Of a stretch of 64,000 bases of DNA, positions 18,926 to 63,120 are shown in pieces. Every line of letters starts with the position of its first letter. Position 1 is the first letter of the stretch. The stretch is from Phallus indusiatus. Taxonomy: Eukaryota; Basidiomycota; Agaricomycetes; Phallales; Phallaceae. A program made the position numbers and the translations under genes. Under the pieces are notes generated by a model. That model saw only the letters and a program-made list of their open reading frames with translations. It was not told the DNA's origin and searched no databases. The DNA lies in contig JAQFWX010000036.1 in assembly GCA_027605045.1 (NCBI GenBank), positions 186,001 through 250,000 on the forward strand, read 5' to 3'.

Positions 18926-19100
18926 CTAGACATGGTTTTATAAACCCCTTCTTCACCAGTGCCGGTTGAATGCTGAAAGCCTGATCAAACCAAATACAGC
19001 ATGATAAAGGTTCAAATGTATTTTTCTTTCTCTATAAGAAATGTTTATATCTACTATGAGACCTCGATCTGGCCTAAAAAAAGTACATTTGTTTGAGGAT

Positions 19101-19284: not shown

Positions 19285-19293
19285 CCGAAGAAT

Positions 19294-35536: not shown

Positions 35537-36125
35537 ATGCCCTCAGCCCGGATGTATCTGTGGATGCTCTCTATTGCTCTTTTCTTCAAAAGCATATTGC
35601 TAATAATTCTGTTACCATTTGATGATTCTGCGTCTTCATACTGTAAGCCGATATTTCTGGCTGACATATTGTAAACATAATTCAATCTTTGGTTCAGCAC
35701 TGGACTTCAAGTTGAAGTCTGATCGTCACTTGCATGTCAAATGGACCCCCCCAGTTCGCCTCCCAGAAGAGGATTCAGTCCATTATGGAATTTATGAGGA
35801 AGCTTCAGATGCGGAATGGGACGCATTAATTCCAAAAAATGGTTTATTTCCTATTGATGGGGAAACATATACGATCACTATGTTCCACGAACTCCGGTGC
35901 CTCAACATCCTACGCCTGGCTCTCAGGGAGAGAGATATTCGAAATACCACCTCTTTAGACATGCATTGTTTAAATTATCTTCGACAAATTATTCTTTGTC
36001 GTGGTGATCTTCATTTGGAACTAATATCTGGCGCGGTGAAAGTGCGAGAAGCATACACTGAGTCATATGTTTGTAATGATTGGAGGGAGGTTTATAGGGA
36101 GGTTGATAATCTTAATTCTCAGTAA
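35537..36125 (+). CDS. UstYa-like protein with degenerate histidine motifs
   Basis: Two exons. Exon 1 is MPSARMYLWMLSIALFFKSI then LLIILLPFDDSASSY, a single membrane anchor (an internal ATG lies at 35552). Exon 2 starts SLDFKLKSDRHLHVKWTPPV and shows the family hallmarks EEDSVHYGIYE, TITMFHELRCLNILRLALRE and MHCLNYLRQIILCRGDLHLE, ending EVYREVDNLNSQ. In the first motif HXXHC has become HELRC, and in the second the first histidine is missing (SLDMHC). The fold is kept but both catalytic motifs lack one histidine, so this copy may be inactive or have a different activity. Confidence 0.82.
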
Positions 36126-40164: not shown

Positions 40165-40990
40165 GATGCCGTAAATTTGCAAAATACAATACAGCAAAGT
40201 TATGAAAAGCACCTTGGCGAAGCGGTACGGGAGCGCAGCATTGCTATTTCAACTTCCAAGAGGATTGTATCGTTACAACCAGATCAGAAGAGATAACCCA
40301 CCTTATGTGTAACACCCAATGCGAAAGTAAGGGTCCACCCGCACTTTCATTCCAATGTAAAACCAATCACCACTATTTAGCATTCCTTCATTTAATCTGC
40401 TAGGCTCGGTTCCGATGGTGCCATAGCTCAATGAAGTTCGTACGGAAATGGTACCTCGTGGGTGATTCAGAATGCGGTGGATTTACGAGTCTGGCCGCGC
40501 TCCAGACTATCTCCTCCACTGCCCGGCATCGCAGCACTTACTGCCGGATTTAACGTTTGCCGTTCTTAAGTAATCAACTTATAATTTTCAAATCGAACCA
40601 GATTTCGTGATGACTTGAAAATTTTTCTTATCTCGCTCTTAGGACTAAGCCCATCATCACCCCGCTTCTTTTAAGAGTAGGGGTTTGGTTTTTCCCCACC
40701 AATTAAGGAAGTCAAGGCACAATCATAAATCTGGTATGCTTCTTCGAATAACATACATAACTTAACCTAATCTCAAATATCACAAGGAAGAACGTATGTG
40801 TTATCTGTGCATCCTGCTTCTCATGTGGCGTAGGAAAAACTAAATTGGTAAATGGGAAACAAATTGTTCCCATGAGTACCCACGAAACTATCTTATCACC
40901 GAAATCCAAGAATTTGGATAACGAGCCGACAATCATATTGTTATATAGGTGATCGCTTTCTGACTAAGACAGATTAAATCGTTCCGAATC
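40165..40990. other. Spacer upstream of the P450, nothing recognised
   Basis: 826 bp without supported coding or RNA features. Confidence 0.35.
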
Positions 40991-43682: not shown

Positions 43683-44931
43683 CTAATCTAGTATCATCCC
43701 GCCATTTATGTTGATTGTTTGGCCTAATCGCCCTTGGTCAGTCATATATTCATAGATCGTTCGTCAGTGAAGAAAATGATTCTCGCCTGTAACATATTTA
43801 CTTTCTTCGGATGCCAAATAAGAAACGAGACCCGAAACGTCCTCTACAGTTCCCGCTTTTCCTAAAGGTATTTGCTCAAGTAGCTACAGAGGGGGTAAAA
43901 TTCAGATGCGTTCTCAACGGTGAAACACACATAGCATACCTTTTTCTCCCAAATTCCCTCCGTATCACCCAATTTCTCGAAAATACTACGGGCGCCTTGC
44001 ACTGAAGCTCTTGATAAAAACGAATTCATTACAACAGAGAATTACTGAGTGGACATACACATAGGAGTGTCTATCGGACCAGGGGCGTATGCATTTACTG
44101 TGATACCGTAAGGACCCCATTCCTGAGCTTGGAAAAAATAATCAGACTGCATATATTAGGTTGTTTGAGTCGATCGAGACTAACCTGCTGTTTGTACAAG
44201 TGCTCGGACAAGGAATTTGCTACCAGAATACAAAACCGTCCCTGGCACAGCTGAGATCTCGATAAGCGTTAAATTTATAAAGATGCCATAAATTAATAAC
44301 TAACCCTTTTTTCCGTTTATAGAACACGCCCCTGTAAAAAATAACTAAATAAATTGGCGTTGTTGAGTTTAATTATGAACATTGTTACCTACGATGCGTC
44401 CACCTCGACCTTGCTTGATCATTTGCCTTCCAGCCTCTCTGAAAGCTATAAAAGGACCACGGGCGTTGATATTCATTAGTTCGTCCCATTGCTGTACCGT
44501 CGCTGGCAAGAGATATATAAGTCCAAAATCACAAAGTTCCAAGAATAAAAACTACGAACTGTCCAGAATAAAGCTATGAATGGACACTGCGGCATTAGCC
44601 ACGAACTAAATATAGGCTATTGGTAATCGTATGCAGGTTCAGACATCACAGCACTGACCACGTCTAAAGAACCTAATTTCTCAACGGTTATGTCAACGAG
44701 ACTTTTGATAAAGTCTTCCTCCGAAGCATCTCCAGGCACGCTCAATCCTTTCTGTCCGATACTTTCAATCTCGTGGACTACATCCTGCAATTCCTTAGAT
44801 TTTGACGGAATATCGTTGACAGCGACGTGGAGTCCATCACGTGCGAGTCGAAGGGCGATACCTCTTCCAATTCCCTGTGCTGCACCGGTGACGATGGCTA
44901 CACGTTGGCTACCAGACTGTGTCAAAGACAT
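43683..44931 (-). CDS. Short-chain dehydrogenase/reductase (SDR)
   Basis: Multi-exon gene from ATG 44931. The first exon (SQRVAIVTGAAQGIGRGIAL) has the classical SDR cofactor motif T-G-x-x-x-G-I-G and continues to EKLGSLDV. The second exon begins FVANAAVSIHSFILD (NAA-type motif). Then ATVQQWDELMNINARGPFIA and GRQMIKQGRGGRIVGACSIN (active-site serine region), TVLYSGSKFLVRALVQTA (catalytic Y-x-x-x-K), AQEWGPYGITVNAYAPGPID (the N-A-x-x-P-G motif), and the final IPLGKAGTVEDVSGLVSYLA then QTININGGMILD. The last intron appears to be GC-AG. All catalytic residues are present. It probably oxidises an alcohol or reduces a ketone in the terpenoid cluster; the substrate is unknown. Confidence 0.9.
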
Positions 44932-45211
44932 GTTATGGATATTTCTCTGAAAGGACCCGGCCTTATAAGGGTATCTATCTATTCTAAATCAAGTCCAGGG
45001 CGGTTAGGCTCTGCTGGAAGCATCCCGGTGGGAAGGAAATTAATAAGGTTTTAGGCCACTGGCCATTTGACATCATTCAGAGTCTGAGGCGTTACTCCAC
45101 AATCAGATTTTCAATAATTTCAGTTAACATGGTACCAAAACAATACATTTCATCAGAATTTGCAATTCTATGGCTTTCCCACAGACTCCACACTATATCA
45201 ATATCATATCG

Positions 45212-46274
45212 CTACCAATTCCCGAGCGAAGCACGTAGCTTCTTCATGTATTCCTTATCCTCGGGCTCCAGATCCATCTCATAAGCGGAGAGTATGCTAA
45301 GTTGATCTCTCAGGTGATTATCTATCACTGTAACCTTTTCTTGTGATCTCGGAATGATCCTGACATCAAATTTGTCTGGGGTAAGAATGAAACTTTCTGA
45401 GAACGCGTTCAGGTCCATTTCTGCTTCCTTTCCGGACGCAGTCAAGGGCGGCTTAAAGGTGAAAGCCCAGAGGAAGTTGGCAACGCTGGGAACACATCAG
45501 TACGTGTGAACAGGCCATTAGCTTATTCTCAAAAGTCAGACTGGGACCTACTTAATTTCCTATTCGTTGCAATTAATTTCCGATGCCTAATAAAGTAGGA
45601 TGTAGAATGACTTACCAGTCCAGCCTTTCCCGTATAAATTCCTGGACAGACGCGGCGACCACCACCAAAAACTAAGTTTTCCCTACGTGCTGGGTCATCG
45701 ACAATGTCGAGACGAACACCATGAGGATGTTTGATGAATCGTTCTGGATTGTATTTCTCCGGTTCTTCATAATACTCTGGATTATGGAATAACGCCCCTG
45801 AAACTTGTCTGAGCTTCACGAGAGATCTAATTTTCGTGTGAAACTTACACAGATTGGTAAATATGGTGGTACCCTTGGGAATAACATAATTCTCGAACTA
45901 AATATACCGAATAAGTGCCCGCACACTGGTGAAAAACTCAAGTTGATTCGCTTACGGGGACATCTTCTGCGCATGCATGGGGCAAGGCAAGAGGTCCAAC
46001 GGGACGAAATCGCATAAACTTGATTGATGACAGTAATAAGTCTCGGTGAAAAGTAGATTATATCTCGCGAAGACTTACTTCTTCCACGATTGCTTTCACC
46101 CAGGTCAGACTTTCAAGATCACTCCAGTCCGGGATTCGGTCAGAACCAACGACAGAGTCCAATTCTTGCTGTGCTTTGGCCTGCACCTCAGGATGAGCCG
46201 CGAGGACGAGTACAATACCCTGCAATATTGCAGAGGATGTGTCCGAGCCTTCGAGCAAAGTGCCACCTAAGTGT
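45212..46274 (-). CDS. Cytochrome P450, 3' half (split by transposon)
   Basis: The C-terminal half of a P450 whose N-terminal half lies at 60062-61229. This part starts at an acceptor (cag/caag near 46275) with HLGGTLLEGSDTSSAILQGI, the I-helix with G-S-D-T-S, and continues with EVQAKAQQELDSVVGSDRIP and KAIVEEV/RFRP (ExxR). Next are NYVIPKGTTIFTNL, NPERFIKHPHG (PERF motif) and the heme loop FGGGRRVCPGIYTGKAGL with the cysteine ligand. It ends MKKLRASLGNW at 45212. All catalytic motifs of the half are intact. The two halves share reading frame and would be joined by one intron that now contains about 13.8 kb of transposon DNA. Confidence 0.9.
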
Positions 46275-46278
46275 CTTG

Positions 46279-46293
46279 CATCAATGATCTGGT
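46279..46293 (+). repeat. Candidate left terminal inverted repeat of the Plavaka element
   Basis: gcatcaatgatctgg, matching the reverse complement of 59984-59998 (ccagatcactgatgc) at 14 of 15 positions. It lies four bases from the P450 intron acceptor. A 2-bp gc duplication could be part of it. Not proven to be the exact terminus. Confidence 0.45.
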
Positions 46294-46588
46294 TTCGGCT
46301 CCGGAGGTAAGCACATTCTCTAGGAGTGTTTAGCGAGCTCCTAAAGTATTCTGCTGATTCCCATCACTTCCAGCACTTCCAGACCTTGCACTTTTTATCA
46401 CACATCCGGAGACAAGCTAGATAAAGGTTCTACGTTGATTCTTTTGTCTCTAGCTTATTCTGTCTGGTATTTATTCATGTCGCTAGCAGAACAATATACT
46501 GGCATATTCAAGCTTAGAAACCATACAAAAGTAAACAACAATCGTTTAAAAAAAATTTGAAAGCATAGTATTTGGGAAAATTAGCTAC

Positions 46589-47788
46589 TTAGTTGTTGAG
46601 AGACTCCAAGTTCATCACATCCATGAAATCCTCCATTTCACTCAGGGTTGGTTCATCCTCGTCATCACTTTCAGTCTCTGGAGGAGTGGTATGGTTCGTA
46701 GGGAAACGTTGGATTTCGATTGGCGTCATGAAACGCTTCCAGCCGGGGGGAACATCACGGCAACCCATAGGCAAGAAATCCTTCATATTTTCGATAGTTT
46801 TCGCAATAATTGCTCGATTGCCCTGACGCCATAAACCATAACGCGCCCACTTCAGGGGAATGGGGGGCCTGAAAACAGCAACACAGGTGTCGAATGTAGG
46901 GCGCTTTCCTGTAATTACGGAATTTGACAGATCTTCTGTAATCTTGATGCGATAGAATGTAGGTATGCTACCGATCCAAATCATAGCCCCAAAAATCTGC
47001 CTATTGTCAGCAACGCTTGCTCTGATGAAGAAATAAATGACACTCACCATGAAACTAAGGGTAGGCACACCACGCTTCTGACGAATTTGATTGTTGTATT
47101 GGAAGGCCGCGATTGCGCATGCCATAAGCTGGCCGGTAGGTGTGCTATTTGCATCATAGACTTTGTTTTCCGTCAGAAGTAGAATATAGAGGGAATAGGT
47201 TTCATCCACAACAGCGGTGTCAACGGTGACGGGATTTTGGATGCCGCAATGATTTAAAGTAATCCGAGTCTGGGTGCGAACAGTCGTGCGCTGTCGCTCC
47301 GCCATTCCTAGAAACTGCAACATGTATTTGACAACTTGATCTGTCAAACTCTCCTGTCCGGAATAATCGGGCTTCCAGTTGGGTACTCGAACCGTATAAT
47401 CGCGCATGTGGATGGCCTGGAGCAGACAAAGGAGGTCGTATACTTGATCTTCACCTGCATTTTTGGGTACGAGAGTCTCGGGCACTGCGTGCTCGAGGAA
47501 GCTGGCGTATTCTGGCCAACGCCAATTCGGCTGACGCAGTTCGTCACTAGAAACACCAAGAAATTTGGTTATTTTCTTTTCCAGCTTGAAATGGATTTTG
47601 TGTTGTTGAAGTTGCTGGCGGCCCCATTTGCAGGCAGCAGTGTTCATCGAGGTGAGTTTTTCACCCTTGCTTGGGTCGAAGTCTGAGAAGGGGGAGGGAT
47701 CTCTGGTTGGGATACGTACATCCGGGTTGGATTCCATAACGAGATCGTCCTCGGTGACCGTGGAGGGATCGTTGGCGTCATCGATCAT
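46589..47788 (-). CDS. PD-(D/E)xK nuclease-like protein carried by the transposon
   Basis: Minus strand, about 380 aa after removing an intron (gtgagt..aggcag near 46,998-47,050, joining TLSFM to IFGAMIWIG). The N-terminus is acidic. The middle contains VDETYSLYILLLTENKVYDA, a hydrophobic strand followed by E-x-K as in the core of PD-(D/E)xK folds, then GQLMACAIAAFQYNNQIRQK and FGAMIWIGSIPTFYRIKITE, and an acidic C-terminus. Related unnamed proteins with an ENK core are common in Agaricomycetes. Nuclease activity is inference from one motif; an upstream acidic active-site residue could be the aspartate of VDTAVVDE. It lies 101 bp beyond the transposase stop on the same strand. Confidence 0.55.
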   Translation of the reverse strand: MIDDANDPSTVTEDDLVMESNPDVRIPTRDPSPFSDFDPSKGEKLTSMNTAACKWGRQQLQQHKIHFKLEKKITKFLGVSSDELRQPNWRWPEYASFLEHAVPETLVPKNAGEDQVYDLLCLLQAIHMRDYTVRVPNWKPDYSGQESLTDQVVKYMLQFLGMAERQRTTVRTQTRITLNHCGIQNPVTVDTAVVDETYSLYILLLTENKVYDANSTPTGQLMACAIAAFQYNNQIRQKRGVPTLSFMVSVIYFFIRASVADNRQIFGAMIWIGSIPTFYRIKITEDLSNSVITGKRPTFDTCVAVFRPPIPLKWARYGLWRQGNRAIIAKTIENMKDFLPMGCRDVPPGWKRFMTPIEIQRFPTNHTTPPETESDDEDEPTLSEMEDFMDVMNLESLNN

Positions 47789-47889
47789 CGTGGAAGATTT
47801 TCGAACGGAGTTTGAAGATCAATTTCGAAGGGTTTTTAACCTACAAAGATCACGTGCTCAAAGAAATGTTCAAACATAAAGAACATTTA

Positions 47890-48341
47890 TTAAAAGACTG
47901 TTTGATATGTACATTTAGAAAAGAAAGAATTGATCCAAAACTCTTCAACAAGCTCAATACAGGTTTGAGGTTTGATTCCTAAATCTCTCAGGGCCGCTGG
48001 TGTGCCATCAGTGTGGTACCGTGGAGCCAAGGGGCAAGATTGTACAACCTGCTCCAATCTGATTATATCAGATTTTTGCGTACCATCCACCATGCGCGCT
48101 TTTGTCACTGTGTACATCTGCGTTTCCGTGTCTAATGGGCCACGATCAAACCATTCAACATAGGCGAGGAATGGGAGGGCATATCGTTCGTTCGGTGACT
48201 GGTGTAGAGCAGTATTTGGGTTTAGCGGACGGAATATCATGCGCAATCGTGCAACGAGGAAGTCTAAAGCAAAGGTCATTATCATTACAGTAAATAATAT
48301 CCTGTACCTACTTCGAATACCCACTTGGGTATCCATACCAT
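47890..48341 (-). CDS. Plavaka transposase, C-terminal part (split by chromovirus)
   Basis: Continues the transposase of 54567-57193 in the same reading frame across the inserted retrotransposon. An intron (gtaggt..ctttag) lies right after the insertion point. The part reads DFLVARLRMIFRPL, later LPFLAYVEWFDRGPLDTETQ then MYTVTKARMVDGTQKSDIIR and LEQVVQSCPLAPRY. The AYVEWF motif is typical of the C-terminus of Plavaka-type transposases. It ends at 47890. With the LTR element present it cannot be made as one protein. Confidence 0.82.
48337..48341. repeat. Left target duplication (ACCAT) of the LTR retrotransposon
   Basis: accat immediately before the LTR start; the same five bases follow the other LTR at 54567-54571. 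Confidence 0.92.
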
Positions 48342-48740
48342 TGTTAGGGCTACTCAGCTCAGGCTAGAGGGAGGGGATCCTAAGATAATATATTGCGGAA
48401 AACACTAACTACTCACCTAGAGGGAGGGGATCCTAAGAGAACAAGCTTAGGGACCCTCACTCTAGGGACAGCGACTATATACATGAAAAACGATAGCGCG
48501 GCGTACGGCCCTGACACAGCTAAGTGCTAGGCGCCCGAACCGAACCTAAGCGACGTGATGTCACGGGCATCACGCCGAGTACGAGCGCGCGACGCGCGCG
48601 AGTAAAGAAAGTGAAATAGAGGCAGAACGAGGAAACGGAAAATGGAAGTAATGGACGGGAAATGTAAATGAAATAGAAATAAACATATACCGATGATAAT
48701 AAATAAGGAAAGTAAGGGGACGCGGTAGCGTACCCTGACA
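48342..48740 (-). repeat. 3' LTR (399 bp)
   Basis: Begins tgttagggct and ends taccctgaca on the plus strand; the coding sense is the minus strand. No difference from the 5' LTR at 54168-54566 was noticed by eye. It contains a repeated gagggaggggatcctaaga motif. Confidence 0.93.
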
Positions 48741-48753
48741 CCATCCCCCCTTC
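48741..48753 (-). other. Polypurine tract
   Basis: On the minus strand the bases just before the 3' LTR read GAAGGGGGGATGG, a purine run directly next to the LTR, as required for plus-strand priming. Confidence 0.8.
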
Positions 48754-51700
48754 AACGAGGCGGCGTCCCGACGCCTGTAGCTTCGACTAATGACGCTTGT
48801 AACTTAGAAAAATCAAACCGAGGGCGACGATGGAAAAGAAGGCCATTTATCGAGCGTGGCGCACTCGGATGTTCGCGGTGGAATTCCTTAATGAGATCTG
48901 GGGCTGCAATATTCGACTCGGGTTCCCACTGATCGTGCTCGGGACCATAGCCTTCCCAACGCACCTTATACTCGAGTCGTCTCCGGAAGACACGACTGTC
49001 CAGAATCCGTTCCACGACGTAGTGTTCACCGTCGTCTCTGACCTCAGGAGGTGGTGGAGCCTTAACACGACGACCCGGGATCGTATCTTCGACCTTTGGA
49101 CGTAACTTCCCGACATGGAAGACGGGGTGGAGTCTTGACATCGACAGTGGTAGACGTAGCCTGTATGCATGGGATCCGACCTTGTTGACTATCGGAAATG
49201 GGCCTAGGTACCGATGCGACAATTTGGCGGAAGGTCTGGTGGTGCGGATGTCGCTCGAATCGAGGTATACCTTGTCGCCAACCTTGTATTCAGGTGCTGG
49301 GATGTGTTTCCGATCGTAATACTTGGCCATCTCGTCTTTCGACCTGGCTATAGCGGCCTTGGCTTCCTCTATCGTCGATTCCATACGCGTCTTGAACTCG
49401 TTGACAGATTCGATCTTCGAGTCGGCAACCTGCGGTTCGAATCCCATACGAGGATGTCGTCCAGTGTCGAGCTCAAAAGGTGTCGAACGCGTGGCTGAGT
49501 GCACATGGTTGTTGTATGCGAACTCAGCCATGGGCAGCAGCTGGTCCCAGTCGTCCTGTCGCTCTGAGGTGAAGAGCCGAAGATACTGCTCGACTTCTGC
49601 ATTGACGCGTTCTGTCTGACCATCGGTTTGAGGATGATATGCAGTAGAGGGTGCAAGCCGTATGCCAAGGAGCCTAGAAAGCTCCTGCGTGAAGCGGGAC
49701 GCGAACTGGGGGCCCCTGTCAGAGATCACCTTCATGGGAAGCCCATGGAGCTTCCAGACGTGCTGGAGGTACAGTCGGGCCAGACCTGTCGCGTCAAGTG
49801 TCGTAAATGTCGGCACGAAATGAACCCGTTTGGTGAGAGAGTCGACGACAGAGAGGATCGCGTCGAAACCGTTGGATTCTGGCAGCTCCACGATGAAGTC
49901 GACTGAGATGTGTTCCCAGGGTCGACTTGGCACTTCTGTGGGTCGGAGAAGTCCATAGGGGGCATGACGAGACGGTTTCGTACGTAGACACATGTCGCAG
50001 GCCTCTACATAGCGTTGTACATACCTAGAGACACCTGGCCACCAAAAGGTGCGCGAAACGAGCTCAAGAGTCTTGAAACGACCCGGGTGACCACCGAGTT
50101 TGGTGTCGTGGTGTCTGGAAAGGATTTTCCGACGCAATTCGTCCACATTTGGCACATAAACCTTGCCGCGATAGTAGAGGAGGTCCTGGTCTTCAAACCA
50201 TTCCGACGAGTGAGCCGAACGACCACCCAGTGCACGAAGTGTTGCAACGGCTTTGGACACACTATCCTCAACCTTGCCTTCCCGATTGGCCTTGCGAATC
50301 TGGCGTAGAAGATCCTCCTCCTCCCCCTTAAGACGGAATGTTTGCAGAGCATTGATTGCAAACATTTCGGGTCGGATTAAGGTGACGCCACGATTGTCGT
50401 CCTTTCCCGAGCCATGATCTGGGCGACGGGACAAGCCATCAGGTTTACCCATCGACTTACCCGGTATATGCTGCAGAGTAAAGTCGAATCGTGAGAGATA
50501 TACTGACCATCTGGCTTGACGACGATTGAGGTTACGCGCGGACATGAAATACTCGAGATTCTTGTGATCAGTCCGTATGTCGATAGGGTGAGACGCGCCT
50601 TCAAGAAAGTGTCGCCATTCCTCTAAGGATCGTATGATAGCGAGCATCTCCTTGTCGTGAATCTCGTAGTTGCGTTCAACGGGACTGAGGGCCTTCGAGA
50701 AGAAAGCAACTGGGTGCCATTTACCGTCTTCGCTCGACAACTGTGAAAGAACTGCGCCTGTTGCAAAGTCGGAGCTGTCTGCTTCAACCCGGTAAGGATT
50801 AGCGGGGTTGGGGATGAGGAGAATAGGAGCAGAGGTGATTGACGACTTCAGAGTATCGAAAGCGTGCTGACAAGTGTCGGACCAGACGAAGGACGTATCC
50901 TTCTTGGTTAACCCGAACATGGGATTGGCAATACGCGCGAAATCCTTGATAAACCGACGGTAGAAGTTGGCGAAGCCCAGGAAGGACTGGACCTCCGTGA
51001 CGTTCTTCGGGACAGGCCAGTCTCTGACACCCGAGACTTTCGCGGGATCCATCTCGACGGTGTTCTCGGAAATGACAACACCCAAGTACTCGATCTTAGT
51101 CCGGCAGAACTCGCACTTCTCTGCCTTGAGATACAGTTTGTGTTCACGGAGACGTTCGAGAACGCGTCGTGTCACCCTGTCGTGCTGTTCCCGATCCCGA
51201 GTGTAAATGAGAATGTCGTCGATATAGACGGCAACGACACCTTCCGAGATCATGTCTTCAAAGATCTCATTCATCATTGTCTGGAAGGTGGCAGGACTGT
51301 TAGTGAGACCAAAAAACATCACCAAGGGCTCGAAGAGGCCACGATTGGTGCGGAAAGCGGCCTTCCACTCATCTCCTTCCTTTATCCGTACGTTGTTGTA
51401 ACCCCAGCGCACGTCCAGCTTGGTAAAGTACCGGGCACCTTGCAGTTTGTTGATGAGTTCCGAGATCAGAGGCAGCGGGTAGCGATTCTTGATTGTCATG
51501 GCATTCAACGCGCGATAGTCCTGAATAAGGCGAAGAGAGCCATCTTTCTTCTTAATGAAGAACACCGGGGACGCCATGGGCGACTTGGAGGGCCGGATTC
51601 GTCCAGACGCAAGGTTCTCTTCCAGAAACGCATCTAACTCGGCCTGTTCGTTAGGTGACAGCGGGTAGATCTTGCAAGACTTGGGCTCGGAACCTGGCAC

Positions 51701-52696
51701 AAGTTCTATCGGGTGATCCCACTTCTTCGACTGCGGCAACGAATCGAATGACTCCTTCGAGAAAATGTCGGCAAAGTCGTGGAACATCTCTGGCACGATG
51801 TCCCGAAAACCCTTGGGAGCTGGTGCGTCTGCGTTGTTGGCGTGGGCCTGAGCCAGTCGCTGGGAGATAGTCTCGGTGGCATATATGCGGTGAGTGTCGG
51901 GCTCGTCGGGTAGCATTGATATCGCGAACAGTCGATCACCCTCTTCAATCTCAGACTCGACATCAACCAGGTCTGGTATATCAGGATCATCGGCCTCAGT
52001 GTTGTCGAGCTCTGGTAAAGGTGCGCGTCGGATCTGTTGGAACGCGCGCTTAGAGAGCTTACCCGCTGGCCAGCGTGGAGCACAAGACCGACAACTGGGG
52101 CTGCAGCGCATGAACTCCACTTGACCAGTTGTGTAGTCTATGACGGGATTGTGAGCCTTGAACCACGGCAGCCCAAATAGGACGGGATACTTGAGCGAGG
52201 TAACGGCGAACAAGGTGCGTTCGGAATGATCCCGAAATCGAACAACCAGGTCAACGACGTGGGTGATAGAGCCAGCGTGGTTGGGCGTACCATCAACGTT
52301 GAACACGGGAATTGGTTTAGCAAGACGCACGGAGGGAAGCCGATGTTTCTCGACAAAGTCGCGATCGAGGAACATACCGCTAGCTCCAGTGTCCAGCATG
52401 GCCTTGCTGTGCAGCAGGGCTCCAGTGTCAACACTCTGTAGTTCCACCGGGATCTCTAGCTTCTGCGTACCAGCAGTAGCTGCGAGTCGGTATTCGCTTG
52501 GCAACGCGCGACGTTGAGAAGGCGACAGCATACATGGAGTTGAAACAGAGCGTGTAGCAGGTGGAGACGATTCTTCGGGTTTAGCAGGGGATGCAGCAGG
52601 GGTAGTTAGATTCGAATCAGAAGTGTCATTTTGTTCGCGATCTATGTACAAAATGTCGAATCTATTAGATGTCGGCAACGAGGGTGCATCGTTCAC
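48752..52696 (-). CDS. pol: Chromovirus Pol polyprotein (PR-RT-RH-IN-chromodomain)
   Basis: 1314-aa open frame. Protease active site LDTGAS at residues 101-106. Reverse transcriptase with VFFIKKKDGSLRLIQDYRAL near 378-397 and catalytic YIDDIL at 491-496. RNase H with EADSSDFATGAVLSQ near 638 and the RTDHKNLEYF region near 708. Integrase zinc motif (H-H-C-C, ending VEACDMCLRTK near 897-907), catalytic VDFIVELP (D933), ISDRGPQF (D993) and TERVNAE (E1029). A C-terminal chromodomain begins HYVVERILDSRVFRRRLEYK and continues VRWEGYGPEHDQWEPE. No internal stop. The frame opens with GTG overlapping the Gag stop, not ATG. Confidence 0.97.
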   Translation of the reverse strand: MNDAPSLPTSNRFDILYIDREQNDTSDSNLTTPAASPAKPEESSPPATRSVSTPCMLSPSQRRALPSEYRLAATAGTQKLEIPVELQSVDTGALLHSKAMLDTGASGMFLDRDFVEKHRLPSVRLAKPIPVFNVDGTPNHAGSITHVVDLVVRFRDHSERTLFAVTSLKYPVLFGLPWFKAHNPVIDYTTGQVEFMRCSPSCRSCAPRWPAGKLSKRAFQQIRRAPLPELDNTEADDPDIPDLVDVESEIEEGDRLFAISMLPDEPDTHRIYATETISQRLAQAHANNADAPAPKGFRDIVPEMFHDFADIFSKESFDSLPQSKKWDHPIELVPGSEPKSCKIYPLSPNEQAELDAFLEENLASGRIRPSKSPMASPVFFIKKKDGSLRLIQDYRALNAMTIKNRYPLPLISELINKLQGARYFTKLDVRWGYNNVRIKEGDEWKAAFRTNRGLFEPLVMFFGLTNSPATFQTMMNEIFEDMISEGVVAVYIDDILIYTRDREQHDRVTRRVLERLREHKLYLKAEKCEFCRTKIEYLGVVISENTVEMDPAKVSGVRDWPVPKNVTEVQSFLGFANFYRRFIKDFARIANPMFGLTKKDTSFVWSDTCQHAFDTLKSSITSAPILLIPNPANPYRVEADSSDFATGAVLSQLSSEDGKWHPVAFFSKALSPVERNYEIHDKEMLAIIRSLEEWRHFLEGASHPIDIRTDHKNLEYFMSARNLNRRQARWSVYLSRFDFTLQHIPGKSMGKPDGLSRRPDHGSGKDDNRGVTLIRPEMFAINALQTFRLKGEEEDLLRQIRKANREGKVEDSVSKAVATLRALGGRSAHSSEWFEDQDLLYYRGKVYVPNVDELRRKILSRHHDTKLGGHPGRFKTLELVSRTFWWPGVSRYVQRYVEACDMCLRTKPSRHAPYGLLRPTEVPSRPWEHISVDFIVELPESNGFDAILSVVDSLTKRVHFVPTFTTLDATGLARLYLQHVWKLHGLPMKVISDRGPQFASRFTQELSRLLGIRLAPSTAYHPQTDGQTERVNAEVEQYLRLFTSERQDDWDQLLPMAEFAYNNHVHSATRSTPFELDTGRHPRMGFEPQVADSKIESVNEFKTRMESTIEEAKAAIARSKDEMAKYYDRKHIPAPEYKVGDKVYLDSSDIRTTRPSAKLSHRYLGPFPIVNKVGSHAYRLRLPLSMSRLHPVFHVGKLRPKVEDTIPGRRVKAPPPPEVRDDGEHYVVERILDSRVFRRRLEYKVRWEGYGPEHDQWEPESNIAAPDLIKEFHREHPSAPRSINGLLFHRRPRFDFSKLQASLVEATGVGTPPR

Positions 52697-54003
52697 TCGT
52701 CGCCGTTTTGAAAATCCTCTACCTCTGCTGCAGCTACAGTCTCCCCCTCTGTCAGAGCAGAGTCACCACGTGTCTGGGCTTCTAGCGCATCTTTCTGGGC
52801 CAGCAGATGCGCGATACTGTCGTCTAATTCCTCGGGTTGAAGATATCGGATGTCATACGCACGAGGGCATTCGCGAGCCCAATGGCCTGCTGCTCCACAG
52901 CGACGACACCTGGTTGATTCTGGGCCAGCACGTCGACGGGCAGCGTCAACGTCCATCGGATCATGCCTAACCTGTGGTGCAGGAGCAGGAGCCGCAGGTC
53001 TTGGAGGCAACGTGGGCACGATTTGAGATGCTGGCCTGGGAGGTGGATAGGGAGGAGCCTGATAGGAAGGGGCAGGGGGCCTCCTCTGGATCTGGAGGGT
53101 CTGATACGACGGAAAAGGGTTGGGGCGAGGTCGATTAATGGGGACAGCTGCGGGATTTGTCTGAGCCGTTCCAGAGCCCACGAGTCGACGGCGAGCAGCG
53201 GTGAAGGCCTCGTTGGCACGCCTGTCCATGTCAAACATGCGTGCTTGCCTGATCCAGCCTTCGTAGTCGTGGAGTGCGGGTCGGTCCTTCATCGTCGCTA
53301 CCAGAGATGCAATTGCCGGGTCTAAACCATTACGAAAGTACGTGTTAATGGCGAGACCTTCCGTAAAGCCAGTGTGCTCAATGAGTACGCGGAAGGCGTC
53401 TACATATTCCTCTACAGTCCTGTTGCCTTGGACATAGCGGTTGGAGTAGAGGGTGTTGATGGCGTCTTCTTGCTCGGATTGTGGAAAGAAATCGGCCTTG
53501 AATCTTTCCCGGAAGGCATCCCAGTCAGCGAAGGGCTTCTCTCCTCTTTGATACCTTTTCAGCATAGATTCGCTGAAGGTAAGGGCGCGACCTTCGTTCA
53601 TGTACGACATCGCCCAGCCGATCTTGAGTTCATCAGTCTCGAAATCGCGACTGCATATACTCATGTAAAACTCGACAGTGTTCCAAAAGGCGCGACCCTT
53701 GGAGCGATCTCCGTCGAACGAAGGAGGTACAGCAGGTCGGGTATTTCGGGAAGAGCGTGAACTGGCTTGATGCTCAGGAGCCGGTGGTTGTCCAGACGAG
53801 GACGCGTCGCCCACAGGGGAGTTTTGGGTTGGAGCAGCTCTAGCCGCGTCTCGGATGCTCTGCAGCACCTCAATCATCTGTGAGGCCTGGGATTCCTGTC
53901 TTGCCAGGCGGGCATCCATTTCCGCGAACTGCCGCATAATAATAGTCGCCACATCGTTGAGGGTGACGAGTGGGGGTGCAGAGGGTGGAGGAGAAGAGTC
54001 CAT
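52693..54003 (-). CDS. gag: Chromovirus Gag with zinc knuckle
   Basis: 436-aa open frame starting MDSSPPPSAPPLVTLNDVAT, with the retrotransposon Gag capsid region around FDGDRSKGRAFWNTVEFYMS, and AFRERFKADFFPQSEQEDAI then FRVLIEHTGFTEGLAINTYF. A CCHC nucleic-acid-binding knuckle lies at residues 366-379 (CRRCGAAGHWAREC). It ends DFQNGDE with TGA at 52693-52695. The Gag stop overlaps the Pol frame by a few bases (GAGTGAACG), so Pol is expressed in the -1 frame relative to Gag. Confidence 0.95.
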   Translation of the reverse strand: MDSSPPPSAPPLVTLNDVATIIMRQFAEMDARLARQESQASQMIEVLQSIRDAARAAPTQNSPVGDASSSGQPPAPEHQASSRSSRNTRPAVPPSFDGDRSKGRAFWNTVEFYMSICSRDFETDELKIGWAMSYMNEGRALTFSESMLKRYQRGEKPFADWDAFRERFKADFFPQSEQEDAINTLYSNRYVQGNRTVEEYVDAFRVLIEHTGFTEGLAINTYFRNGLDPAIASLVATMKDRPALHDYEGWIRQARMFDMDRRANEAFTAARRRLVGSGTAQTNPAAVPINRPRPNPFPSYQTLQIQRRPPAPSYQAPPYPPPRPASQIVPTLPPRPAAPAPAPQVRHDPMDVDAARRRAGPESTRCRRCGAAGHWARECPRAYDIRYLQPEELDDSIAHLLAQKDALEAQTRGDSALTEGETVAAAEVEDFQNGDE

Positions 54004-54154
54004 GAGAGAGAGAAAGGAAAATGGGGTTTTTAAGATGGAGCAGAGGGGTCGGTTATAGACGGGACTCGAGGGAAAAATACGACACTGCGATAGTCGGTGT
54101 CGAGCGCGATTTTTCGATAGCGAGTGTCGATAAAAACGGCCAGTCTGCGAGTGG

Positions 54155-54165
54155 AAGCTTGTTCT
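54155..54165 (-). other. Self-priming primer binding site
   Basis: Two bases inside the 5' LTR border, the minus strand reads AGAACAAGCTT. The complementary 11 bases AAGCTTGTTCT lie in the LTR at 54264-54274, just downstream of its TATA box. This is how Tf1-type elements prime reverse transcription with the 5' end of their own RNA; no TGG-type tRNA site is present here. Confidence 0.8.
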
Positions 54166-54167
54166 AC

Positions 54168-54566
54168 TGTTAGGGCTACTCAGCTCAGGCTAGAGGGAGG
54201 GGATCCTAAGATAATATATTGCGGAAAACACTAACTACTCACCTAGAGGGAGGGGATCCTAAGAGAACAAGCTTAGGGACCCTCACTCTAGGGACAGCGA
54301 CTATATACATGAAAAACGATAGCGCGGCGTACGGCCCTGACACAGCTAAGTGCTAGGCGCCCGAACCGAACCTAAGCGACGTGATGTCACGGGCATCACG
54401 CCGAGTACGAGCGCGCGACGCGCGCGAGTAAAGAAAGTGAAATAGAGGCAGAACGAGGAAACGGAAAATGGAAGTAATGGACGGGAAATGTAAATGAAAT
54501 AGAAATAAACATATACCGATGATAATAAATAAGGAAAGTAAGGGGACGCGGTAGCGTACCCTGACA
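54168..54566 (-). repeat. 5' LTR (399 bp) with promoter
   Basis: Same sequence as the 3' LTR. In coding sense a TATATAG box lies at about 54307-54301, and the predicted RNA start (AAGCTTG) is about 28 bases downstream at 54274. It starts TG and ends CA in the usual way. Confidence 0.93.
54302..54307 (-). promoter_or_regulatory. LTR TATA box
   Basis: TATATA on the minus strand within the 5' LTR, upstream of the 11-nt self-primer complement. The same sequence is present in the 3' LTR. Confidence 0.65.
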
Positions 54567-57193
54567 ACCATCAGGGTCCCGATCAACAAATACAACATCA
54601 AAATTACCAGGTTGGTCATGGTTTCCAGGTTGAGCATGGATAATTTGAACTTCTGGATGGTCGTGAAACTCATCAACAAGAGGTAGTTGCATGTGGAAAA
54701 GCGTCCAGACATCGACAAGATCATAATGCGTCGGTAGGGCATCAGTTGCCTCGAATACCCATCCCCTACCGCGACTGCGTTGTTGTCGAGAAGCCAGTTC
54801 AACACTGGCTTCAAAGCGTTGAGCAGCAGCGTGGAATGACGATGGTAAGATCTTGTAGAATTCCAGGAGATCGTTCATAAACCGCTTTGTCATATGTGGC
54901 TTCTTTGACAAGCGCGGCTCGTAAACGGTGTTCGCTATGGTCATATAATCGTGGGTGATATGCTCCGAGTTGGCAGCTGCATTGACATCATACTCCAATG
55001 AGTCAAGAGTAATTTGGGAATCGAGGCGCCATGCAAGATATCTATCAAAAAAAACAAGCTTTTCCTGCCTGTCAAGATACCGGGCCATCTGTTTAGGGAA
55101 CTCGTGTGCGCTAGTTGCTTCGAAGGGTTCCTTGGCCAGATTACGGTGTTCCCGTTCAGGTCCTTCAGTGGAGAAATTTGCGGTACCTCCGATTCGTCTG
55201 ATGAATTCCGGATAATGATGTCGAGTGTGTAATTTCGGTATGTTGAAGTGATCTATTGTGCCGTTCTTGCCGCGTCTGGCACCAGTACGAATGAAAATGT
55301 CTTTGAGGTTATGGAAAGCTTGATTGTAGCGCTCAAGCTGCTCCAATGTGCTGTCCGTATGGGCGTTGTACTGTACAGTATATATAAAGTCGAGTTCAGC
55401 ACGGGTGGCACGTAAAGCTAAGCCTGGTAGATGGTCATGATCGGCGATAGCAGGAAGTATGTATCGTTGTATCTCGCGATGCTCTCGACCTGAACATTGA
55501 GAAAGTTTGGATAGACCCATGCTGAAGTGGCGAAACCCTATAGTCTTCGGCTGTTGCATAAACGCGTGGTCGAGGTCAACTTTACCGACAAGATTGGTGA
55601 TCCATGTCATATGATGATCTTTGAAAGCCTTGTGAAGTCCATGTAGTACGTCAGGTCCTATGGTTTGGCAAATATCTAGACCATCAAACTCTGCCCACCA
55701 CGGTTCCTCCACTCCATTAAGTCCGACCTTACGGCAAGCCTCTGCGAAAGTCCAAGTGTCATCTTGGATGGAAGTTTGTGGGTGTCTGGGACCGATAGAG
55801 GCGCGAACATCACGAATAGCTTGTAAGATCAATTCTCCGGTACGTGGGTCACATGGTTGCGAACTACCAAGGTCTGCAGTTCTTGCTACACAGGGAACAC
55901 AGCTGTTAAGACACAGGCATGCAACGAGACTTTGCTCTGGAAGATCTCCAATGCAGGCAACGAGGCGGAGTATTTCTTTTCGCATGAATCCTTCACTGTC
56001 TACCATCGTTGTTGGTACGTGTGTGTGATTGCGAAGGCTCTGCAGAACAATCTTCGAACAAACATGGTGAAGCCGGTTCCGAAGGTAACCAGGGTAGCGT
56101 TGGTATTGACCGACACTCGTAAATGTGACGTTGGCAAATTTGGCTTCAGGAAAGTACGCAAGACAAAGAAAGGCACGTCGGCTTGGAGCAGAGCGAACAT
56201 GTTGACGGATGTGTGCGTTACTGATGATGACGGGCTTTATTTTCTTGTCGCCCGAGAAATTTGTAAGGTGTGTGGAATCGGAGGCTAAGATATACGGAAG
56301 AATAGTAATCCCTTCCGGGAATTCACTTTGCCAGTCATTCCAAGCTTCGCCTGATGCGACCTCGCAGTATACTCGATCCGTGCGAGATTCGTCCATATAT
56401 TCCTCATACGGAACATAGTCCTTCTCGTGAGAAAACTCTGGATTGGCCTCCAACCAGGCAAGGCACTCAACAGGGTCGCGATATAAAAGAAGTTGTGGGT
56501 CATCCGGAGCCTCAGGTAGAGTCACCTGTTGAAAATGCCACCGTGGTGCTCCAGGCAGGCTTTCAATGCGTTTCAAAAGATCTTTTGCTGTGCGGAATGA
56601 AGGGGTAAATGCATCCTGTCTCCCAACCTGGAAAATATTAGTGAAAACAGCTTTCAGATAATACGTGTGCGACATACCCAGTCTAGACGCAAGAATGTGT
56701 CTATCTTGTCTTGTGAGAGGCCTGCTCTTCCCAACCAATAGGCCAAACCCCACTCATCAACGCCAGCAAATGGGTATGCAATATTCTGCGAATCTATCTC
56801 GTTACGCTTCACAAACTGATAGGGTGTTTCACCTGTTCCAAAAATTCTGTTTGCTGTGCGAAACACTCGAGTATAATAACGACGGGTTGTGTTAGGGCTC
56901 AGAGATGGTGATGCAGTTGGAGGCGGTGAGAATGAAGGGGGTGATAGTAAGTCTTCAGCAGTGGCATCGCAATCCATTTGATCAGTATTAACATTGTATT
57001 GCGTTTCGTATTGTACTCCCTCGACCCTAGGTTGGGTGGCAGCAAGGATGGGACGATCAAAACTGAGGCTCGAAGTGTTCGTCGATACCCAAGCAGAACA
57101 TAAGGGAGATTTGGCTAGATGGCAACTGAGTGCCTTATCACTGAGAAAACCTTTGCCCCGTGTCTTACAGCTTGGTGCAGGACACCGAGGCAT
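54567..57193 (-). CDS. Plavaka transposase, N-terminal and central part
   Basis: Starts at ATG 57193 with MPRCPAPSCKTRGKGFLSDK and ALSCHLAKSPLC, a C2H2-like finger typical of Plavaka transposases. Exon 1 ends DTFLRLDW and a short intron leads to VGRQDAFTPSFRTAKDLLKR. The core reads ITILPYILASDSTHLTNFSG, RAFLCLAYFPE, PCVARTADLG, FDGLDICQTIGPDVLHGLHK, LDFIYTVQYNAHTDSTLEQL and GTIDHFNIPKLHTRHHYPEF. These are the conserved blocks of the Plavaka (CMC-superfamily) DDE-type transposase. It is cut after VFVDRDPDG by the chromovirus at the ACCAT duplication and continues in frame at 48341. Confidence 0.88.
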
Positions 57194-57312
57194 CAGTGCA
57201 TCAGTACTGCGGTGCCGGCAAAAGCCCGAGTTTGAAGTGCTGACTGGGGTTTCAAACCCAGCAGTCCCGGTTCCGCCATCAGCTTTTTTTTTCGTCTTCT
57301 CAACTTCTTGTC

Positions 57313-59596
57313 ATGGCACCCAGACCAGTCCCCAAACCTGTTGCACCTTCAACAGAGGTGTCAAATGGAAATGTAAGTGCTAATAAATTTACTCTAATGA
57401 AGTATACTGATTTGAAAAAGCTCCCTGAAGTTCCACAAACAAGAGCGACCACGCGTCGCCAAACCACAGCCCAAACTGCAGAGGTTAACATAGTTCAGGG
57501 AACATGCGCTACGGATGGTAGTAGTGGTGGCAGCAAGTCACTCAGGTCGAATGGAAAGGGAAGGGGAAAGGGAAAGGGAAAGGGGAAAGCAGTGGCTGTC
57601 GCTCCCTCTGACAGTTGCAGTGTTTCCCAATCCGCAACTGCACACAGCGCGAGTGCTGTAGAGGTAAGTAACCTATAGCTTTTTAATGAGCTACTTGATT
57701 TTTCAATCCAATGCAGGATTTCGACGTTGATGTCGCACTTCAAGAGGAGGAGTTAGATGATCCATTGGAAGCCGGTGAAAGGCTATCCTTACCATCTGAC
57801 CTGATGCGGGGTACTGCCGACAAGAACACCGATAGGGATGCCCTAATAGCAACACTGACGAAGCGTCTCAGAGAGCAAGAGGAGTTGCTGAAGGTCAGTC
57901 TCGTTGAATCCATAAGTTCTGACATCCTTAACACCATCTACCTTAGCGCACAAAAAGAGCGGGACCCGTCGATCTCCTCACTGATCACCAGGCCAAACGT
58001 GCTCGCACTGATAAAAGATTACCTGATCCTTCCGTTTTGCGTATGAAAATGGCTACGTAAGTTCTGGAATTATATATGTCTGCCCCAGCAAACACGTTAC
58101 CACAGGAACTCAATCTCCGGTCGCCCCCCTATTCCTCGCCCCCCAGCCTTGAACCTTGCTTCAAAGGCTTCCAAAAATGTGTATGATGATCTTTCATTTC
58201 CTTCCTCAACAAGTCCGAGTCCCCATACACCATCTCTGGGCTCGAGCTTTACCAGACAAACCAGCCGTTTTCGAACACCGGCATTCATTTCTAACCAATC
58301 TATGTCTCCTTCTCTCTCCTCTGAGGCATCCAAAACACCCCCGCCCATGCTTTCACCATCTGCATTTGCTGGACTCCAACCGGCTGCTCAGCTGGATCCA
58401 TCCTCTGAACCCGTGTCTTCTGGACTAATTAACTCTGCCAAACCCTACATGATCACCTCGTATGACGCTGAGTACCAGAGCGTTCTCTCCCATGCTAAGC
58501 ACTACCTCCATCTTTGGTTGGTAATTGACGACGCATTCCCGGATCAAATGAAACGCGAGGCCATCGTCAAGTCCGCAGTCGAATATGCGAACGAAGATTT
58601 CTCCGAAATACCGGATGTCTCCCTAACAGAAGCGATCAAAACAATGGTGAGTTAGTACACCTAATCTTCGATGTATACTCATTGTCATTTTAGTTGCGCC
58701 AGCATGTGTCCAGGGCTCGCAATAAATGGAAGGCCCACGCTCAAGCGATTGTTCCCGCTGCCTACAGTCTTGAGGCCAGTAATGGACCAGATGCCAACAA
58801 AATTCGAGCTGCATTCCTCTTAGAAAAGTACCGTTGGACTTACGGCATTGTTAAGCCAGCTATTCGGCCTGGACAAAAAGTAATTTATGACTCGTTGCCA
58901 ATTGCATATCTTCTGATGTGTTTTATACAGGAAAAGCGCGCACGCGGTTTTGGTCATCCAGCCATAACACAACTTATTATTGCAAGTGTATTCGGAGACA
59001 AGCAAGGTGTTGCCCATCTACGGCCTGACAAACTTCGCCCGATACCCTTGCCAATGCTTGCTTTCGCTGCGCTGGTGGTTAGTACTAGTGTATGTATGCA
59101 GACTGCAATGGGCTGATGTATATTAAAGCTTCGGAATTCCTTGGAAGAGTTCACAAGGACCGGCACCAGGATCAACGTTGATATGGAAGCCAAAACATAT
59201 GGCCAACACTACCAATCTTTGATTAAAAACGTGAATCAGTTTGAGATACTGAAAAATGGTCAATCTTTGGAACTACGCATGGGGATATGGAAACAGGGAG
59301 CGTAAGTGTCTTTCTTTTTTTGAATAATATTCGCTGAAGCTTCAATTAGGGTTTTGATAAAGCATGAATATCAGGCTGATGATGACCAACCCGAGGAAGA
59401 ATACGTGCTCGATGATACTGAGTCGGAAGATTTTGGGGAAGAGCAGACGGTGGAAGAACGCGGCACTGGTAGGGTCCAAGACCAACCTTCAAATGGCGCC
59501 GCTGGCGAAGGGTTCAATGAAACAATAGAAGATAATATAGGTGACAATGACGACGACGATAGTTGTTTTGATGAAGACAGCGAGCCTGAGGTTTGA
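57313..59596 (+). CDS. DUF6532-like protein divergent from the transposase
   Basis: About six exons. It starts MAPRPVPKPVAPSTEVSNGN 119 bp from the transposase start on the opposite strand. The N-terminal region is lysine/glycine-rich (a KGKGKGKGKG tract coded by a gggaaa repeat) and disordered. The C-terminal half (YQSVLSHAKHYLHLWLVIDD, LEKYRWTYGIVKPAIRPG, GFGHPAITQLIIASVFGDKQ, RPIPLPMLAFAAL, and in the next exon NSLEEFTRTGTRINVDMEAK) has the block pattern of the DUF6532 family abundant in Agaricomycetes. The last exons end in a strongly acidic tail. Function is unknown. Its place inside the element suggests transposon cargo or an accessory factor. Confidence 0.72.
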
Positions 59597-59983
59597 TACA
59601 CTGTATCCTCCAAAAATAATTGTAGCTTCTTTGTTTAATAGTATTTTTGTATCTACTTGTTTATCTAATGTAGCTTCTGAATACATACACACTTCCTGAG
59701 AGCTTTGAAATGTCCAGCGGCATCTGGAATATCTGAATTATCTGGGCTATATTGCGTGGGTCAGAGCGCCTTGAGCTTCAGGAGTACTGGGAGTGTCGGA
59801 AGCGCAAGAGCGTCTGATGACACCGAGTACATAAAAAGTCCACGTACATTCAGAGATTTTTGCGTTTTCTGAAAGTAAGCAGCTTCCAGCATTCTCCGAT
59901 CAATTCCTGGCGCTTCAGGATTGAGGAACGTCATCCCATCTGATCCTGCGTTCTGGAGCGTCTGGGATTATCCAGAGCTTGGC
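59597..59983. other. Right subterminal region of the Plavaka element
   Basis: Noncoding. It holds several related short motifs (gcgcttcagga, gcgccttgagcttcaggag, ggagcgtctggga) that may be subterminal transposase-binding repeats. Confidence 0.35.
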
Positions 59984-59998
59984 GCCAGATCACTGATG
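59984..59998 (-). repeat. Candidate right terminal inverted repeat of the Plavaka element
   Basis: ccagatcactgatgc, inverted copy of 46279-46293 with one mismatch. P450 intron sequence resumes within about 60 bp (acttac donor complement at 60056-60061). Confidence 0.45.
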
Positions 59999-60061
59999 CT
60001 GGTACGCAAATCAGTTGAGTTTTCTCCATATCTGAGTAGCATATAAACTATTACAACTTAC

Positions 60062-61229
60062 AAAACCATCTCATCCGTCAAATCCCAATCGCGTTGATTT
60101 TTAATGACCTCTTCCATGAAAGTATTGTTGTTGTCTCCGCGGGACATTCTGCGTTTAACTATGTTCAATAGATAGCCAAAAATCTCCTCTTGACGATTTT
60201 TGAGGTCATGAGCGTCCCGTTTCCATTTTGCGAAATAGGCAGGTACGACTTTGAGAATGGGGAACAGATCCACGGGCGGTGCCTTTCCTACGTCCATGCA
60301 ATTCAAAAAATCTCTTTCCATTTTTGCAAAATCCTTGACTATTTTCGAGGTGGATTGTGGCTCACGGTGCCCATATATCATACCCTTCAACGATAATACA
60401 TGATCAAAACGCCTTTGGTATCACAAGGAAAAAATTACCATGAAAAAGGAGGTTATATATCTATTGATGTCCTCATAAAAATTCTTGAAGGAATCAGATA
60501 AACATCCATAATCGGAAAGATTGTAGAATATTAGATTTACTTCCGGTTGATGGGTCATTTCCCATAGCAATTGTGCTGCTTCTGCACGCTGGTAGGGTTT
60601 GAACGAGTCAACACTTTCGGGACGAAGCATGTGCACAGCGGCCTTGCGCATGACTCTCCAGGTTTCTCCCGCTATGTAGATAAATTTTCATTTTTCTACA
60701 GAATGTAACAAGAGAAAGCATGCCATACCATATTGTCCACTTCCGATGTTTAGGTTGTTAGGGATAACCATGTCCGCGATAATACTTGCAGGACGATTAC
60801 AAGTAGCCGCACCGCGCTTGTCAATCAGTTCTTTAACCATAGTGGGACTATTGATGACGACAATAGTCATATGGAGAACTTTGACGGATATTATATCGCC
60901 ATATTCGCGAGCTTTGAAAGAAAGTAAAAGCAGCGATCAGCAGCCCAAACAAGTTGTTACGGTAGATGTCAGATCTATGAAAAATTGAAAGTCCTGTTTT
61001 ATTACTTACCCCACTCTGTCAACTTCAGATGAAGTCGCGTTCTGGGGAATTGCAAGAGATTTCCTAAGAAAGGCGACGTTGGTGGTCCAGGGGGCAGAGT
61101 CTTGTCCCGGCAACTAGCATCATACGCTGAGTAAAGTTTCGTGGCGAGATAAGCAAAAATTAAAGCATATGAGCTCTTGAGTACGAGCGGACTTGGTGTC
61201 AGAGTTACGGGGAGTGTTAACATTGTCAT
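60062..61229 (-). CDS. Cytochrome P450, 5' half (split by transposon)
   Basis: Four exons from ATG 61229: MTMLTLPVTLTPSPLVLKSS then YALIFAYLATKLYSAYDASC (membrane anchor), PPGPPTSPFLGNLLQFPRTR (the proline-rich hinge), IVVINSPTMVKELIDKRGAA, WRVMRKAAVHMLRPESVD (C-helix W-R-x-x-R-K), and LPILKVVPAYFAKWKRDAHD-like sequence ending RDWDLTDEMV. A gtaagt donor at 60061 starts the intron that now holds the Plavaka element. The 3' half is at 45212-46274. It is co-oriented with the terpene synthase 740 bp upstream, as expected for a tailoring gene. Confidence 0.9.
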
Positions 61230-61967: not shown

Positions 61968-63120
61968 CTAGTTGGCACTACTATCATCAGAGCAATCAGA
62001 GTCCTTTGAGTCCCAGGTTGATACCCCCAATTCATCCAATCTGTATCGTTGAGGTAATGCCGTGTGAAACGAAATATATCCCCTTGAGAAATTTTGGAAA
62101 GCCTGTAAAGCTTGTTTGTCCGGGGAGAGCATTTGAACTGCTCTCTTATATGCTTTGATAGAATCTTCCATCAACGCGTATACGGCTTCGATTTTAGTTG
62201 ACCCGTGCAGTGCCGCTAAAAATGAGGGACGGTTCACAGTTTCACCGTCAGACTCTTCTTTATAAAACGAGAGAAGATCGCTTAGTGCAACTATCAGCAT
62301 ACATTGTCCTTTGTATGATAAATTTATTCCGCACTTACTTCGTGTTATTAATAAAAATCATGATTTGATGAAGAGTTTGGATAAAGTTTGGAACAGAGAT
62401 TTCTCTGGGAAAGATGAACAACGTGTATGCTTCGGATGCACCAGACATAACACGAGAAAATGTGGGATATCCCACCGCGGCATTGCTCAGCTAGCAAAAT
62501 CTGGGATTAGTTCGGTTGTTCATAGCTCAGAGTTCACTTACCGTCATTCCTCGGGTTTCGTATTCAAGTAAGAGCGCATTCACTGCGTTCAAAGTGGAGG
62601 TAACCATGATGTTTGCAACCACGCGTTCGTAGCGTTCAGAAAGTTCCAAAATAATGCCTGCGAAGCAATCTAAAACAAGATCTGCTTGTGGCACATGCTT
62701 GAAAAAGCGTTCGTTGAAGAGATGAACAACATTTATATCCTTTTGATAAACGTCGTCCAAATAAATTCCACAGGCGGTATACAGAGCAATGAGCACTCTA
62801 GCAGATGTATCTTTGAGGTGACCGTAACCTGCGGTTGCCATAAGGATACCACCTGGAAGAAAAGGAATTAAGCAGTATTGTCCTTCGGGAGCGCAACCTC
62901 GGCGAATTGACTCGTCTACGCATTCCTTATAGAAAGCGCCATCTATTTTGACCCGGTCACCGTAGGGGAGAGAGCATTCTCGCAAGAATTTAGAGATCAT
63001 ATCTCGGAGATCGTTGCGCGTCTCGTCCTTGAAACAAATCGCTTAATTCATGTGCATGTTTCAATTATTAGCATTATTACTTACATCAAGTTGTGAAGGT
63101 ATGTAAACTGAATTGGTCAT
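61968..63120 (-). CDS. Sesquiterpene synthase, trichodiene-synthase-like family
   Basis: Four exons from ATG 63120 (MTNSVYIPSQLD, then DETRNDLRDMISKFLRECSL). The protein has IALYTACGIYLDDVYQKD, the aspartate-rich magnesium site in the LDD position used by the trichodiene-synthase group. A later exon has YPTFSRVMSGASEAYTLFIF, and across an intron NDLLSFYKEESDGETVNR, the N-D-x-x-S-x-x-x-E second metal site. It ends WDSKDSDCSDDSSAN at 61968. Both metal sites are intact, so activity is plausible: cyclisation of farnesyl diphosphate in the cytosol. The product cannot be read from sequence. With the split P450, the SDR and the second P450 it forms a likely terpenoid cluster. Confidence 0.9.

Follow-up and report, generated by a model that had tools for sequence, protein, structure and literature searches.

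A PlavakaB-type transposon carrying a chromovirus in intron 5 of one allele of a cytochrome P450 gene of Phallus indusiatus

PlavakaB transposons of the CMCT clade are characterized, in passages of PMC12730594, by the termini CATCA..TGATG and by target duplications of 2 or 3 bp. Here, we describe an element with these properties in a 64,000-nt stretch of the Phallus indusiatus genome (GenBank assembly GCA_027605045.1, contig JAQFWX010000036.1; hereafter the window, C136:186001-250000 in our contig numbering), where it occupies intron 5 of a cytochrome P450 gene and is itself interrupted by a chromovirus. The element has the same Plavaka transposase family (PF18759) as PlavakaB, the same termini and a duplication of the same size, and was assigned by these features; in addition to what the passages on PlavakaB report, it has a DUF6532 gene and a third gene. 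We hold with high confidence that this PlavakaB transposon entered the P450 intron in one of the two haplotypes, that its transposase was broken by the chromovirus before or after the jump, and that the window allele would be a null.

The assembly (67.2 Mb, 206 contigs) includes both haplotypes. In a DNA search of the whole assembly, each half of the P450 gene matched exactly two places, the window and contig C184, at 99% identity. The segment C184:1022469-1071915 is collinear with window positions 1-64000, with 92–99% identity except in one divergent stretch. The transposon segment is absent from C184, on which window positions 46278 and 60000 are adjacent, and intron 5 of the P450 gene measures 64 nt there, compared to 13,787 nt in the window. 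An empty intron of about 50–60 bp, which the initial annotation had proposed to look for in sister strains, was thus found within the same assembly. We read C184 as the other haplotype and the insertion as hemizygous, present on the window haplotype only. The phasing rests on sequence comparison, and C184 might in principle be a paralogous segment, or the junction in the window an assembly artefact. This is very improbable, as only two genomic places match each P450 half, the two segments are collinear outside the divergent stretch, and the joints carry precise terminal repeats and duplications. Two local features of the alignment were also seen: at 17500-23250 the haplotypes diverge more than in the flanks (82–88% identity, gapped), and at 28248-30985 a tandem duplication of ∼1 kb (∼83% identity) is visible as cross matches to the allele.

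The exon model of the P450 gene was evaluated on both alleles. On C184 it yields a protein of 557 residues that is identical to a public protein, P0001, over 557/557 residues. P0001 is encoded on a contig of 1,804 nt, which is shorter than the unspliced gene (∼2.3 kb from ATG to stop in the empty allele), so that its coding sequence must be spliced; its source mark 'lgn' presumably denotes assemblies of public reads. P0001 gives a single p450 match (PF00067, profile positions 1-442 of 462, 4.7e-73), with the I-helix and the heme loop in one gene. Among the best 120 of 910 proteins matching at E 0.001, the next P450 match is from Mycena latifolia (56% identity), and the best named relatives are from Mycena and other Agaricomycetes. 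By these comparisons the two halves are one gene, and neither parts of different P450 families nor two separate genes, which would have spoken against the initial annotation; the gene is split between the donor at 60061 and the acceptor before 46274 as the initial annotation had it. None of the 11 exons or GT/AG sites is missing from the window allele, which differs from C184 by 10 nt and one amino acid (Q84K); the coding sequence is thus undamaged, as had been claimed, and P0001 carries Q84, as C184 does. The other introns of the gene are 51–98 nt long. Near the end of the gene, 130 nt hold an 8-nt microexon flanked by introns of 56 and 66 nt. An earlier model of the last intron was dropped since it required a non-AG acceptor, which the microexon resolves; the microexon is backed by P0001 and by LEIN/LEIS at the same place in two Mycena relatives.

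The inserted segment is bounded by inverted repeats (CATCA[A/G]TGATCTGG), with CATCAG at the right end only and CATCAA at the left. The lengths balance: the difference between the two introns (13,787 − 64 = 13,723 nt) equals the 13,720 bp of the transposon plus a duplication of 3 bp. A Plavaka transposase had been proposed between the P450 halves, and its Pfam match covers the complete profile (1-325 of 325, 2.9e-76). No match to TET/JBP was found among the window frames scanned with Pfam. With at most one mismatch, the terminal motif occurs 148 and 151 times in the assembly, compared to 11 and 12 times for a reversed control. Overall, a cut-and-paste PlavakaB transposon would have jumped into intron 5, 4 nt before exon 6, in one haplotype; to move again, the window copy would depend on transposase supplied by a different copy. 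The features are collected in Table 1. Among the first 100 places of the terminal motif listed, 17 exact pairs stand 130 bp apart, and the three inspected (within L046-L051) have facing ends; these 130-bp elements with Plavaka terminal repeats are likely short non-autonomous relatives.

Table 1. Features of the P450 locus and its nested insertions (positions in the window)
Feature	Position	Strand	Remarks
P450 gene, 11 exons	45212..61229	-	same exon model on C184 yields P0001; GT/AG at each intron
P450 exons 1-5	61010-61229, 60729-60911, 60541-60671, 60439-60483, 60062-60384	-	
P450 exons 6-9	46079-46274, 45956-46018, 45849-45897, 45616-45797	-	
P450 exons 10-11	45552-45559, 45212-45485	-	exon 10 is the 8-nt microexon
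P450 intron 5	46275..60061	-	13,787 nt; 64 nt in the C184 allele
PlavakaB-type DNA transposon, chromovirus inside	46279..59998	.	13,720 bp; terminal repeats; absent from C184
Left target duplication	46276..46278	.	TTG
Right target duplication	59999..60001	.	CTG, one mismatch; alternatively 2-bp TG plus an extra C
Left terminal inverted repeat	46279..46292	+	CATCAATGATCTGG
Right terminal inverted repeat	59985..59998	-	CATCAGTGATCTGG
Third gene of the transposon	46589..47785	-	398 residues searched; no Pfam family
Plavaka transposase, C-terminal piece past the chromovirus	47890..48341	-	
Plavaka transposase, N-terminal and core part	54567..57310	-	open frames 56654-57310 and 54396-56753, the second of which enters the long terminal repeat (LTR)
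DUF6532 (PF20149) gene of the transposon	57313..59596	+	9 predicted exons, 627-residue model, exons placed by eye
Ty3/Gypsy chromovirus	48342..54566	-	6,225 bp; gag frame 52693-54189, pol frame 48752-52762
3' LTR (element sense)	48342..48740	-	399 bp
5' LTR (element sense)	54168..54566	-	399 bp
Target duplication of the chromovirus	48337..48341 and 54567..54571	.	ACCAT

The position of the transposon bears directly on splicing. Its end lies 4 nt before exon 6 and 2 nt before the acceptor AG itself, and the donor and the old branch region are unaltered in the window allele. The insertion brings in new AGs, one at the transposon joint (TACCAG, intron positions 62-63) and one in the terminal repeat (CATCAG, 68-69), near the position of the old AG (63-64). 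The donor and old branch region would pair with these transposon-end AGs, giving introns of 63 or 69 nt and an end of the frame after a further 8–10 codons, ahead of the I-helix threonine and the heme loop. The predicted tails are ...DEMVFISDLAPSSG or ...DEMVFDLAPSSG, each followed by a stop, and unspliced read-through stops at once. The true acceptor lies 13.7 kb away and has lost the sequence that formerly preceded it. Because the transposon AGs stand at the old spacing and the acceptor is parted from the branch region, we infer a loss of function for the window allele, with a truncated, heme-less product. That expression is doubtful, as the initial annotation put it, is still something we infer, now with a concrete reason in the AGs beside the old branch region. 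The gene might instead still be spliced at the original acceptor, making the insertion nearly neutral; the donor and the acceptor AG are preserved, no exon is damaged, and the alleles differ by one amino acid. We consider this unlikely, given the 13.7 kb between branch region and acceptor, the new AGs at the old spacing, and the three transposon genes plus a chromovirus that lie in between.

Several further points weigh against this account of the locus. The scan for AGs past the donor covered only about 40–140 nt, and splicing of very long introns is possible. The two copies of the 3-bp target duplication differ at one position (TTG/CTG). C184 might have arisen by excision instead of being the ancestral empty site, although no footprint is visible. 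Finally, P0001 is one sequence only, possibly from another strain.

The inner insertion is a chromovirus whose two LTRs show 0 differences in 399 positions, have TG..CA ends and are flanked by a 5-bp duplication. Both the gag and the pol frame are open. The Pfam matches follow in the order RVT_1, RNase H and integrase, together with a Tf2-1-like SH3 and, at the C-terminal end of integrase, a chromodomain. The element shares gag, reverse transcriptase, RNase H, integrase, Tf2-1-like SH3 and chromodomain with chromoviruses of the Tf1/sushi type, from which no difference was established. Tf1-type elements self-prime from their own RNA end. Here, 11 nt in the region following the 5' LTR are complementary to part of the LTR that lies ∼30 nt downstream of a TATA-like motif, which would fit Tf1-like self-priming. 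In paralogous transposase copies the core and the C-terminal piece are separated by 17 nt (L025, L027), 53 nt (L041) and 83 nt (L026), and the pieces being so close together indicates that a single reading frame is interrupted by the LTR element. The frame had been said to be cut at ACCAT by an intact LTR element and to resume beyond it, which agrees with the identical LTRs and the spacing in the paralogues. A search of the assembly with the LTR gave at least 47 matches at 81–100% identity, two of which are the window's own; since 40 of 1,358 candidates were scored, the family is larger than these 47 matches. A perfect 5-bp duplication was found at 23 of 27 related insertions examined; the other four include single LTRs, which may be halves of full elements.

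The order of the two insertions was assessed from a sister Plavaka copy at C149:365005-382603 (L037-L039), which is 98.5–99.3% identical in four aligned pieces, its own insertions excluded. The allele of this copy on C1 is empty, with a clean 2-bp duplication, TT. As the window insertion also has an empty allele, both near-identical copies are hemizygous. The sister transposase, too, holds an LTR element in the same exon, in opposite orientation, with 92% identity and the duplication CCATC, at a site 1 bp from the window's ACCAT site. A second LTR element is nested in it (630-bp LTRs, 100% identical). One old chromovirus common to both copies was rejected because of the differing duplications and orientations. 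Sequence preference found no support as a cause of the coincidence: among 22 perfect-duplication sites, no position shown exceeds 0.21 bits, and no strong target preference is visible. For transposons sharing ∼7.5 kb, two independent hits within 1 bp are estimated in ∼1 in 2,500 pairs; there was more than one chance of coincidence, as the sister has taken up more than one LTR element.

The initial annotation took the order of events as fixed by the nesting. This is upheld for the entry of the chromovirus into a Plavaka copy, and does not extend to that entry having followed the landing of this copy in the P450 gene. The transposon may already have been loaded with the chromovirus when it entered the P450 gene, mobilised by transposase of another copy: the nesting is compatible with this, and loaded copies exist, such as the 99% sister on C149 with a chromovirus in the same exon. 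However, the sister's chromovirus is a different insertion by orientation, identity and target duplication, and the LTRs in the window are identical whereas the Plavaka copies differ by 0.7–1.5% in the four aligned pieces. We regard the loaded transposon as the less probable order, with a modest chance, and the P450 insertion first and the chromovirus second as clearly likelier, because no passenger is common to the window copy and its sister.

The DUF6532 gene next to the transposase was compared with Plavaka copies elsewhere in the assembly. The spliced model has a Pfam match of 7.3e-39. Protein searches at E 0.001 gave no match, either for the whole model (7,995 candidates) or for its domain region (2,026); in view of the Pfam match we blame the word filter, but the gene model is a prediction made by eye. 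Genome-wide, 40 DUF6532 matches fall into 21 clusters and 66 Plavaka matches into 38 clusters. Within 12 kb of a Plavaka cluster lie 17 of the 21 DUF6532 clusters (1.4% expected for random points), and within 15.5 kb 18 of 21; the others are at C140:2843748 (50.6 kb away) and on C157 and C34. For all 14 full-length Plavaka loci (one match spanning profile 1-324/325), a DUF6532 cluster lies no more than 10.8 kb away. The 18 pairs comprise 14 divergent and 4 same-strand arrangements. Common descent links these copies, and some are allelic, so that they are not independent trials. Against a regular partnership, 20 of the 38 Plavaka clusters, all of partial matches, lack DUF6532 within 20 kb; these may be remnants or belong to a separate Plavaka lineage. 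A pair of exact terminal repeats on C173, 7,417 bp apart, flanks DUF6532, Plavaka and the third gene. Further copies of the third gene lie close to Plavaka on C149, C111, C162 and C1, and more divergent ones have no Plavaka match nearby, for example on C154; no similar solved structure was found for it at E 1. In CACTA elements, TnpA is an end-binding partner. We see about an even chance that DUF6532 is a standing second protein of these transposons, possibly an end-binding one, and that the CATCAG end acts as a portable acceptor, so that insertions near an intron end produce nulls. In a passage of PMC8955403, DUF6532 is counted among host domains in a comparison of fungal genomes, and DUF6532 and Plavaka are both among the domains of the same Ganoderma genomes, where they are not linked. 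No DUF6532-Plavaka link was found in the literature searched, which was mostly without subscription papers and in which PMC8955403 alone was found for DUF6532 and for PF20149. As a regular Plavaka gene, DUF6532 would shift from the host to the mobile-element side.

The P450 gene lies in a terpene-type neighbourhood (34451-63692) with a TRI5-like synthase exon (61968-62357), an SDR exon (44617-44988), a second P450-like gene placed by eye (40964-43001) and two UstYa exons (34451-34933, 35607-36125). Because the P450 gene adjoins the terpene-synthase-like gene, the insertion may have consequences for a terpenoid step in one nucleus. The window allele is likely a natural knock-out of a known kind. 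As the same gene is present with and without the two-level insertion in one genome, allele-specific RNA can probe the handling of a 13.8-kb intron directly.

The nested insertion is ordinary in kind, and unusual in its clarity and position. Within-individual insertions are described for Marasmius oreades in passages of PMC9674265, and the two cases are alike in showing recent transposon variation in a mushroom-forming fungus, involving both Plavaka and Gypsy elements. Compared with what those passages describe, the insertion in P. indusiatus is a two-level one, on a single haplotype and 4 nt before an exon.

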